A program made the position numbers and the translations under genes. A stretch of 64,000 bases of DNA from Thioalkalivibrio sp. ALJ24. Lineage in GTDB: Bacteria; Pseudomonadota; Gammaproteobacteria; Ectothiorhodospirales; Ectothiorhodospiraceae. The stretch covers positions 118,473 through 182,472 of the forward strand of contig NZ_KB898728.1 in the NCBI RefSeq assembly GCF_000377785.1, read 5' to 3'. This document shows positions 43,198-46,453 of this stretch, in pieces (position 1 is the first letter of the stretch; each line of letters starts with the position of its first letter). Under the pieces are notes generated by a model. That model was not told the DNA's origin. It searched no databases and worked only from the letters and a program-made list of their open reading frames with translations.

Positions 43198-44613
43198 ATG
43201 GCCGACGCCAGCGCACCGCAGCTCGTCATCCACAACACCCTCGGGGGGCAGCGCGAGCCCTTCGTCCCCGCCAACCCGCGGCGGGTGACGATGTATGTCT
43301 GCGGGCCGACCGTGTACAACCGCGTGCATGTGGGCAACGGCCGGCCGGTGGTGGTGTTCGACGTGCTGTTCCGCGTGCTGCGCGCACTCTACGGACCGGA
43401 GCACGTGGTCTACGCCCGCAACATCACCGACGTGGACGACAAGATCAATCAGGCCGCGCGCGACAACGGCGAACCCATCGCCGCGCTGACCGAACGCTTC
43501 ACCCGGGCCTTCCACGAGGACATCGCCCGGCTCGGCACCCTGGAGCCGACCCTCGAGCCCCGGGCCACCGATCACATCGCCGAGATGATCGCCCTGATCG
43601 AGGATCTGCTCGCGCGCGGCCACGCCTACGCGGCGGACGGCCACGTGCTGTTCGACGTAACCTCTTACCCTGCCTACGGCGCCCTGTCCGGGCGCACCCT
43701 GGAGGCGATGCAGGCCGGGGCCCGGGTGGAAGTCGCCGACTACAAGCGCCATCCCGGCGACTTCGTGCTGTGGAAGCCGGCCGGCGCGGACGAACCCGGC
43801 TGGGACAGCCCCTGGGGCAACGGCCGCCCGGGCTGGCACCTGGAATGCACCGCGATGATCCGCACCCACCTCGGGCACGCGATCGACCTGCACGGCGGCG
43901 GCCACGACCTGGTGTTTCCGCACCACGAGAACGAGATCGCCCAGGGCTGCGCGGCCGCGGGCTGCGAGGAACACGGCGGCCATTACGCCCGCTACTGGAT
44001 GCACAACGGGCACGTGACCATCGAAGGCGAGAAGATGTCCAAGTCGCTGGGCAACTTCCGCCTGCTGCACGATCTGCTGCAGGTCTGGCCCGGGGAGGTG
44101 CTGCGCCTGGCGCTGCTGTCGCGCCACTACCGCGCGCCACTCAACTTCTCCGAGGACACCCTGGAACAGAGTCGCAACGCACTGGACGGTCTCTACCGGG
44201 TGCTGCGCGAGCATGCGGACATCGAGGCGCTCCCCGCCGAGGCCGGTGACACCCCGGTCTTCGCCGCCCTGCTGGACGACCTCGACACCGCCGGGGCGAT
44301 CACCGCCCTGCACCGCATGGCGGATGCCCTGCAGGCCGCGGGTGACGCGGACGAACGGGCCCGCCGCAAGGGCGAACTGCTGGCCGGCGCCGGACTGCTG
44401 GGCCTGCTGCAGCAGGAACCCGAGGCCTGGTTCCGCGGCGACGCGGCGCAGGACGAAGACCTCGCCGCCTGGGTGGAGGAGCGCATCGCCGCGCGCGCCG
44501 AGGCGCGGCGCGCGCGCGATTTCGCCACCGCCGACGCGATCCGCGACGAGCTGACCGCCAGCGGCATCGAACTGGAGGACACCCCGGATGGCACCCGCTG
44601 GCAGCGCGCCTGA
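43198..44613 (+). CDS. cysS: Cysteinyl-tRNA synthetase
   Basis: 471 residues from the ATG at 43198; AAGGA lies about 10 bases upstream. The first cysteine of the zinc site is in YVCGPTVYN; the class I signature appears as HVGN, the KMSKS loop is intact ([11 protein letters not shown]), and further zinc ligands lie in WHLECTAM and [10 protein letters not shown]. It charges tRNA-Cys. The DUF1007 gene starts inside its last 26 bases, in another frame. Confidence 0.97.
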
Positions 44614-45280
44614 ACGGGGTCTCCGCAGCGACGTCCGGGCACGCGCCCGGCTGGCGCCGGCATTTCTGCTGGCAGTGGCGGCCGGTCTGCCCGCGATGGC
44701 CGCGGCCCACCCGCATGCCTGGATCGACCTGCGCGTGACCCTCGACTTCGACGCCGACGGCCGGCTGGCCTCGATGCACCAGCTGTGGGTGATCGACCCG
44801 ACCTACAGCCACATGCTGCTGGAGGACATGACCCGCGACATGGACGGCGACGCCGGCATCGACTCGGTGCTAGAAAAGGTCGGCCCGCGCATGCTCGACA
44901 ACCTCGCCGAATACGACCACTTCACCGAGCTGGAGGTCGCGGGCGAGACCCGCGAAACCCCGCCGGCGCAGGCCCCCGATCTGCAGCTGCGGGACCGTCG
45001 CCTGCATCTGGGCTTCGAGCTCCCGCTGGACGAACTCGACGTCGATACGGACACCGAATTCAGCTATCGGGTGTACGACCCGACCTACTGGATCGAGGTG
45101 CGTCACGACCCCGATGACGTGATCCAGGTCAATAACGGCGGCTGCCGGGTCGACCTGCGCGAGGCCCGCCCGGATCCGCAGCTGGTGCGCTACGCCGCCA
45201 CCCTGGAACGCGACTCGCGCAGCCCGGTCGAAGACCTCGGGCGCCATTTCGCCGAGATCGCGAGCCTGGAATGTGACTGA
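44588..45280 (+). CDS. DUF1007 exported protein, partner of NicO-type permease
   Basis: 230 residues. A signal peptide ([20 protein letters not shown]) is followed immediately by [11 protein letters not shown], the conserved His-rich N-terminus of DUF1007 (COG3683), which could bind metal. The remainder has beta-rich segments such as [23 protein letters not shown]1007 genes are regularly next to NicO/RcnA-like permeases; the protein is thought to be a periplasmic metal-binding or delivery factor. It overlaps cysS by 26 bases and precedes the NicO gene by 45 bases, which contain a Zur-like box. Confidence 0.87.
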
Positions 45281-45305
45281 CGCCGGTTCCCGAACGAATC
45301 ATCGC

Positions 45306-45320
45306 TGTTATACCATAACG
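45306..45320 (+). promoter_or_regulatory. Zur-like operator overlapping a possible -10 of the NicO gene
   Basis: TGTTATA-C-CATAACG matches the gammaproteobacterial Zur core TGTTATA-N-TATAACA at 12 of 14 positions, with inverted GTTAT/ATAAC arms. It ends 5 bases before the ATG at 45326, and no Shine-Dalgarno sequence stands between. If TTATAC within it is the -10, the transcript would be almost leaderless. Assignment to Zur (zinc) and not Nur (nickel) is an inference from the consensus. Confidence 0.6.
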
Positions 45321-45325
45321 CAATC

Positions 45326-46453
45326 ATGAGACCCGTGACCCGGCCATCCTCCTCTCGCACGGGGGCCCTGCTCCTGTTCCTGCTGCTGCTCGGGCTGCTG
45401 CCCGCGCTGGCCACGGCCGGCCACCCGCTGGGCGGCGGCGCGGAAGAAGAGAGCGCACCGGAACCCGATCCCGACGCCCCGGGCCTCGCCGATCCGCCGG
45501 CGGAGCTCGCCGACCCCGACGCCGGGGAAGAATGGCCGGTGGACGACGAGGCGGGCCCGCTGGAACGCCTGGTGGGCTGGGTGCTGCAGACCCAGCGCCA
45601 GCTGCATCGCGACCTGACTCAGGGACTGCACGGCCTGCGCGACGCCCCCTCGGCGCAGGCCGGGGGCCTGCTGATCCTGGTCAGCTTCCTCTACGGCGTG
45701 TTCCATGCCGCCGGCCCCGGGCATGGCAAGGCGGTGATCACGACCTACCTGCTGACCCAGCCACAGAACCTGCGCCGGGGCATCGCGCTGTCCACCCTGT
45801 CGGCGCTGGCCCAGGGGCTGACCGCGATCCTGCTGGTGGGTGTGCTGGTCGGCATCCTCGGCTGGCTGACGCGCGAGACCCTGGGCCAGGTGCGCCACCT
45901 GGAGGTCGCCAGCTTCGCGCTGGTGGGACTGCTGGGCGTATGGCTGATGTGGCGCGGCCTGCGCCAGGCCTGGCGGCGCCGGCGCGCGGCCGCGAACGCG
46001 CACCATGACCCCGGGCACCACCACGAACATGCCCATGATCATGACCACGGGCACGATCATGACCACGACTGCGGTTGCGGCACACCCCACCACGTCGACC
46101 CCGACCACCGGGGCACCTGGTGGGGCACGGTGCTGGCAGTGGGGATCCGGCCCTGCTCGGGGGCGGTGCTGATCCTCGCGGTCTCGGTCGCGGTGGGTCT
46201 GGTCTGGGCCGGGGTCGCGGCAGTGCTCGCGATGTCGCTGGGGACCGCGATCACGGTCTCGGTGCTCGCCGCCCTGGCGGTGTATGCCCGCGACTGGACA
46301 CGGCGACGCTTCGCCGGCACCCGCGCGGCCGGCCTGACCTGGATCGGCCCCGCCTTCGGTCTCGCCGGCGGCGCCGTCATCGCGGTACTGGGCTTCAGCC
46401 TGGTGCTGGGTGCGGTGGCCGCCGGCCCGGCGATGCACCCGCTGGGGATGTAG
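45326..46453 (+). CDS. NicO-family divalent metal permease (RcnA/NiCoT-like)
   Basis: 375 residues. A signal-like helix (LLLFLLLLGLLPALATA) precedes a Pro/Glu-rich periplasmic stretch and six or more transmembrane helices. Family motifs are FHAAGPGHGKAVITTYLL (about 126-143) and GIRPCSGAVLILA (about 273-285). A His/Asp-rich loop at about 226-261 (HHHEHAHDHDH) is typical of Ni, Co or Zn transporters. Whether it imports or exports metal is not evident, though the Zur-like box just upstream would favour zinc uptake or allocation. It goes with the DUF1007 gene. Confidence 0.88.
   Translation: MRPVTRPSSSRTGALLLFLLLLGLLPALATAGHPLGGGAEEESAPEPDPDAPGLADPPAELADPDAGEEWPVDDEAGPLERLVGWVLQTQRQLHRDLTQGLHGLRDAPSAQAGGLLILVSFLYGVFHAAGPGHGKAVITTYLLTQPQNLRRGIALSTLSALAQGLTAILLVGVLVGILGWLTRETLGQVRHLEVASFALVGLLGVWLMWRGLRQAWRRRRAAANAHHDPGHHHEHAHDHDHGHDHDHDCGCGTPHHVDPDHRGTWWGTVLAVGIRPCSGAVLILAVSVAVGLVWAGVAAVLAMSLGTAITVSVLAALAVYARDWTRRRFAGTRAAGLTWIGPAFGLAGGAVIAVLGFSLVLGAVAAGPAMHPLGM

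Follow-up and report, generated by a model that had tools for sequence, protein, structure and literature searches.

A candidate Zur operator abutting the nicO start codon in Thioalkalivibrio, and the near-leaderless zinc-starvation message that it may govern

Thioalkalivibrio sp. ALJ24 is a salt-loving sulfur bacterium in which a NicO-family permease gene begins almost directly behind a short near-palindrome. This arrangement raises the question of whether a permease from a family named for nickel is controlled here by the zinc repressor Zur and, if so, from what kind of promoter. The gene occupies 45326..46453 on the + strand of the window (the whole 64,000-nucleotide stretch of DNA that was analysed) and encodes a 375 aa protein with a His-rich loop (PF03824, E 2.9e-33); by NicO, the closest named relative of the host is Thioalkalivibrio halophilus. 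It stands in a same-strand row ordered cysS-DUF1007-nicO, with cysteinyl-tRNA synthetase upstream at 43198..44613 (+; TIGR00435, E 2e-141, above cut-off) and a 230 aa DUF1007 protein at 44588..45280 (+; PF06226, E 1.1e-40), whose ATG falls within the 3' end of cysS. The near-palindrome, TGTTATACCATAACG, is located at 45306..45320, in the 45-nt gap between the DUF1007 gene and nicO. The probable explanation of this site, argued below from sequence comparison, a near-leaderless mRNA during zinc starvation.

The position and letters of the box were verified in the window. The first-pass annotation had described a match to the 7-1-7 Zur core, TGTTATA-N-TATAACA, at 12 of 14 positions, ending five bases before the NicO ATG at 45326; both the sequence and the coordinates are correct, and the match is not a product of chance. 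The spacer between box and ATG is CAATC (45321..45325, +, 5 nt). Since the box is palindromic, it was assigned no strand and was reported on both. It is the sole window site within three mismatches of TGTTATANNATAACA, a loose limit at which 10 of 100 shuffled windows give an equal number of matches. Across the 2.81-Mb genome, sites with at most one mismatch to TGTTATANNATAACA occur in only two places, the nicO box and C1:252415, which lies in the znuA/znuC intergenic region. A site with two mismatches is found between dksA2 and folE2 of the host genome, and no zinc gene was identified at two further places with two mismatches, C4:164694 and C7:17830. Genome-wide counts at up to three mismatches (17+21 sites) were close to those of a reversed-pattern control (16+13), and therefore only strong sites were used. 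A position weight matrix was built from the znuC and dksA2 boxes of the genus only, with no nicO box included. The nicO box scored 24.2 bits with this matrix and the runner-up site in the window 7.6 bits, while none of 150 simulated 64-kb windows reached 24.2 bits. A chance palindrome was ruled out by the genome-wide rarity of sites with at most one mismatch together with the specificity of the matrix.

The earlier reading of the box as a Zur operator also gains from its company, as the same kind of box precedes nicO in a clade of 16 genomes, recurs at znuA/znuC and dksA2/folE2, and is accompanied in the host by a Zur-like gene. Elsewhere among bacteria, Zur regulation is recorded for folE2, dksA and znuABC (PMC6103462). 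In the host genome the zinc importer gene znuC is divergent from znuA, and the best NCBIfam match of its product is PRK09544 (302 bits against a cut-off of 306). Three matches to the Fur family were obtained in the host, and one of these proteins, encoded at C11:32552, has E. coli Zur as its best PDB match (4mtd, E 4.4e-33) and Zur as its best NCBIfam match (PRK11639), at 137 bits and thus below the 167-bit cut-off. Taken as a prediction from sequence, a Zur operator and Zur control at nicO are well supported.

About 1 kb from the zur-like gene lies a group of genes (L009:7988-11645, in G000:C11) encoding a His-rich outer-membrane-type protein and AztC-like, AztA-like and ABC-3-like proteins, with two Zur-like boxes upstream. 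The AztC-like and AztA-like genes resemble parts of zinc ABC importers, with scores below cut-off, and searches of Pfam and NCBIfam returned no match for the His-rich protein. The group is probably a second zinc import operon.

NicO was searched for in 30 genomes of the genus and is present in 27, the remaining three being only 58-79% complete; loci L019-L023 lie on contigs equal in length to contigs of G001, G011, G010, G028 and G021 and were taken as repeats of them, and only the G set was counted. A box matching 10-13 of 14 positions precedes the nicO ATG in 16 of the 27 genomes, the host (G000) included. The gap between box and ATG is 2 nt in 15 of the 16 and 5 nt in the host alone, and in each boxed gene the close ATG opens the complete NicO frame, as judged by alignment to NicO. 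The box is retained in all 16, although NicO is about 59-70% identical in 14 of them and the intergenic DNA outside the box differs among the boxed loci.

In the other 11 genomes, the search reached up to 1500 bases ahead of the NicO match and gave no site above 8/14. The motif is conserved throughout one clade and absent from its sister (0 of 11), even though eight of those 11 loci share the gene order, with both cysS and DUF1007 upstream of nicO. Loss of the motif from relatives with this gene order is what the first-pass annotation had named as grounds for refuting its reading, and the sister clade shows it. Of the rest, L116 and L122, which are cut by contig ends, have DUF1007 only, and in L121 cysS precedes nicO and DUF1007 gave no match. 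The boxed and unboxed genes fall on opposite sides of one branch in a NicO tree; the branch has intermediate support (86/86 on the boxed side), and one gain or one loss thus explains the distribution of the box. Because the box is missing from a clade that has the same row, Zur control of nicO is to be regarded as a lineage trait. Two sister clades carrying the same row with and without the box provide a clean natural comparison. Zinc control of a NicO/DUF1007 pair, as first proposed, could apply directly to NicO but not to DUF1007, which begins inside the end of cysS upstream of the box. No Zur box was found before DUF1007 in a box search of the window, and the box lies between the two genes, so direct control is possible for NicO only.

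The zinc reading of NicO rests on the box, from which we infer zinc as the substrate. Rosadini (2011) is said to have described ZevAB of Haemophilus influenzae as a zinc system; ZevA and ZevB we take to be a DUF1007-type protein and a NicO-type permease, and under this definition the adjacent DUF1007 and NicO genes of the window have a ZevAB-like layout. ZevAB is reported to be needed by H. influenzae in zinc-limited growth (PMC3872050, PMC8000910, PMC10563805). The suggestion that zinc control would change the assignment of NicO/DUF1007 genes was consequently too strong, as the field already has a published zinc system in ZevAB. If the present reading is true, a family labelled as nickel transport gains another zinc-linked case.

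It is possible, though on the whole unlikely, that the Zur site is real and NicO nevertheless carries nickel or cobalt, with control arising through metal cross-talk; this alternative concerns the cargo, and its probability overlaps with that of the preferred explanation. The Pfam family name is nickel transport, and the host has a urease alpha gene and hence a nickel enzyme to feed. Urease alpha is otherwise present among the boxed genomes only in G010, and a full hydrogenase only in G014, leaving 13 of the 16 (one of which, G021, is 66% complete) without urease alpha and also without a full-length NiFe hydrogenase. Partial hydrogenase matches of about 30-50 bits, presumably complex I, were left out of these counts. 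The match of NicO to the nickel/cobalt efflux family PRK10019 is far below cut-off (54.1 bits against 195), which sets it apart from the RcnA type and likewise speaks against a nickel or cobalt cargo.

The two clades differ in other respects as well. A full hydrogenase occurs in one of the 16 boxed genomes, in comparison with full or near-full hydrogenases in 10 of the 11 unboxed genomes and a fragment in G022. Within the genus, the NicO loop contains 7-26 His in all 16 boxed proteins and 1-4 His in the 10 of 11 unboxed proteins that were measurable. Box, His loop and hydrogenase association all follow one clade split and therefore do not constitute independent evidence, a limit that applies equally to the Fisher value computed on them. 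Outside the genus, His was counted in 71 of 72 loci over a wider segment, between two core motifs, and gave 11-20 His in eight boxed loci and 2-20 in 63 loci without a box near nicO; loci L036, L042, L071 and L078, in which a box lies further upstream, have 4-8 His. The His-rich loop was accordingly rejected as a general zinc mark, being found outside the genus with and without a box.

Returning to the proposed start-abutting Zur promoter, the geometry seen at nicO is shared by other boxed genes of the genus. Of 28 znuC genes found, 26 were usable, as L153 and L158 start too near a contig end. The ATG, which opens the ZnuC frame, lies 2 nt from the box in 22 of the 26 and 3 nt in three; L146 is cut by the locus end in the in-frame check of znuC and nicO. 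A box-NN-ATG pattern with at most one mismatch gave 49 matches in the 30 genomes and none with the reversed control, distributed as 16 at nicO, 23 at znuC, two at dksA2 and eight elsewhere. A true ATG ends 41 of the 49, and in the other eight, including the window nicO and the znuC of G007, the mismatch falls within the ATG. Those viewed among the eight matches elsewhere stand before a gene for a His-rich outer-membrane-type protein (G000, G005, G006, G014) or before a znuA-like gene (G028). The box-2 nt-ATG arrangement of dksA2 is present in the host and G014, and in eight of 10 dksA2 loci of the genus 25 nt separate the box and the ATG. By eye, folE2 and znuA, the divergent partners in the host, have short leaders with Shine-Dalgarno-like sequences.

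Three individual loci may be added here. At L009:5661-7080, a single Zur box stands between the divergent genes dksA2 and folE2, and dksA2 has a near-leaderless arrangement in the host. In the znuC of G007 (L138), the ATG two bases past the box is lost (ATTTGTAG), and the first in-frame ATG after that lies 26 nt past the box. At L265:1129-2245 (G028:C34), about 9 kb from znuC, there is a znuA-like gene that carries a Zur box; the adjacent ATG is absent there, and this copy of the box resembles a duplicate of half the znu promoter region.

The register of the box with the start codon suggests where the promoter may lie. A -10 within the box had been proposed at TTATAC; its placement inside the box is retained as putative, and comparison with the other sites makes TATACC (45309..45314, +), preceded by an extended -10-like TGT, the more apt hexamer. 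TATANN occupies box positions 4-9 at all boxed nicO and znuC genes of the genus, which places it 8 nt from the ATG when the gap between box and ATG is 2 and 11 nt from the ATG at the window nicO. The one window ATG that opens a frame of at least 120 aa and is preceded at 6-11 nt by a TATA-type hexamer is that of nicO. No clear -35 hexamer was seen by eye, and this weighs against the proposed model, as do the departure of the host from the common 2-nt gap, the absence of the box in the sister clade, a weak right half-site in two boxed relatives (L107, L114), the loss of the close ATG at one znuC (G007) and the sub-cut-off score of the Zur-like protein. The usual promoter spacing would put the start of transcription at the ATG, or within a base or two of it, when the gap is 2; with the 11 nt of the window nicO, the leader would measure about 2-5 nt.

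No Shine-Dalgarno-like sequence was seen before the window nicO ATG. Mean anti-Shine-Dalgarno pairing is -1.57 at boxed nicO (n=16) and -0.41 at znuC (n=26), compared with -3.33 at random window positions, so the boxed ATGs are preceded by weaker pairing than random sites show. Unboxed nicO of the sister clade has a mean of -6.8 (n=11), a value flattered by taking the best of several possible starts. The fixed spacing in relatives and the weak pairing bear out the initial view that the box takes the place of the ribosome binding site in a near-leaderless geometry. The nicO mRNA is predicted to be leaderless or nearly so, with a 5' UTR of 0-5 nt in the window. Among gammaproteobacteria, leaderless mRNAs are generally regarded as uncommon; in this genus they appear to be used repeatedly by one regulator, with operator, -10 and start codon in fixed register.

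Under the proposed mechanism, zinc-loaded Zur would occupy the box and block RNA polymerase when zinc is ample. When zinc is short, Zur would leave, transcription would start at the ATG or within about five bases of it, and de-repression would produce a leaderless or nearly leaderless nicO mRNA. NicO would then aid zinc acquisition along with DUF1007, the latter supplied from the cysS transcript, and the znuC promoter of the genus would be built likewise. Translation of nicO from cysS-DUF1007 read-through would be poor, and the start geometry would thereby insulate NicO from the upstream row. If this is true, zinc starvation in the genus is answered in part by messages that need no Shine-Dalgarno sequence.

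An alternative is that the Zur operator acts as a roadblock and nicO is expressed mainly by read-through from cysS-DUF1007, the leaderless mRNA being of no matter. This would suit the same-strand row, with its short distance from DUF1007 to nicO, and the sister clade, which retains the row without any box. It is nonetheless improbable, for the long mRNA would probably initiate poorly given the weak Shine-Dalgarno pairing at boxed nicO ATGs, and a roadblock requires no fixed spacing to the ATG, whereas the 2-nt spacing is common to znuC, which is divergent from znuA in the host. The palindrome is very unlikely to be a promoter alone, an A/T-rich -10 with chance symmetry and no repressor site: the left half by itself would serve as an extended -10-like TGTTATA, but the right half past the -10 is still kept (TAACG in 14 of the 16 nicO boxes), a like palindrome stands at znuA/znuC and dksA2/folE2, and the matrix scores of the nicO box and the window runner-up lie far apart.

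The start-abutting Zur promoter also permits a broader and rather doubtful scenario, in which the zinc response of one Thioalkalivibrio clade captured a formerly nickel-transporting NicO by means of this promoter, with His gained in the loop and NiFe hydrogenase lost. Read-through from a constitutive cysS-DUF1007 transcript would be silent for NicO, whose ATG has no ribosome site, and only the leaderless mRNA of zinc starvation would be translated, possibly favoured by altered zinc-starved ribosomes.

The closest described parallel is the Zur regulon of Corynebacterium glutamicum (cg0042, cg0043, cg2911). Three transcripts under Zur control there are reported to have the A of the ATG as their first base; the Zur motif overlies the core promoter, as in the geometry proposed here, and a single motif serves a divergent pair (PMC2823685). 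Those starts were mapped by RACE, except that the cg0043 start is given in a figure legend as deduced by prediction (PMC2823685), whereas the starts proposed here are deduced from spacing. The genes and the phylum also differ, the present case being a gammaproteobacterium with a TGTTATA-type box and NicO in a co-directional row. No leaderless Zur promoter in gammaproteobacteria was found among the titles and abstracts listed by searches of open-licence papers. Leaderless Zur-controlled transcripts and ZevAB are therefore already known, and the gammaproteobacterial nicO/znuC case adds a variant.

The abutting geometry of znuC appears confined in the samples taken. In other genera of the family, none of 16 znuC genes combines a box of at least 11/14 with an in-frame ATG 5 nt or less from it; most have a box with the nearest in-frame ATG at least 26 nt away. 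L278 has an in-frame TTG at 1 nt, L268 an out-of-frame ATG at 3 nt, and L274 no box. Across the class, none of 34 sampled znuC genes (one genome being common to the family set) has a box-abutting ATG, and L243 and L250 have a weak 9/14 site 1-2 nt before an in-frame start. The distant ATGs at znuC of the family and dksA2 of the genus indicate that Zur control needs no start-abutting geometry.

Boxes are nonetheless associated with NicO elsewhere. Outside the genus, boxes of at least 12/14 number five among the 51,406 positions that immediately precede DUF1007/NicO versus seven in 805,208 positions elsewhere, an enrichment that involves few loci only. In the Halomonas group, nicO is preceded by a box of 11-12 of 14 at eight loci, with DUF1007 directly upstream in seven. 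The box is just upstream as in Thioalkalivibrio, but the first in-frame ATG is 16-56 nt past it, and several of these loci show a GGAG-like sequence. Boxes of 12-14 of 14 lie further upstream in L036, L042, L071, L076 and L078 (alphaproteobacterial or unclassified), and in L189 and L190, from another genus of the family, a box of 11/14 lies shortly before DUF1007. Zur control of DUF1007/NicO pairs thus seems to recur with differing promoter geometry.

In E. coli K-12 (L198), one box likewise lies between divergent znuA and znuC, but the znuC ATG is 30 nt beyond it, unlike the 2-3 nt seen in 25 of 26 znuC genes of the genus. At L198:1237-1266, an ATG four bases past this box begins an ORF of nine codons, the TGA of which overlaps the ATG of znuC; it is possibly a near-leaderless leader peptide coupled to znuC. 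The znuC region of G045 (L268) is somewhat similar, with an ATG 3 nt past the box and out of frame with znuC.
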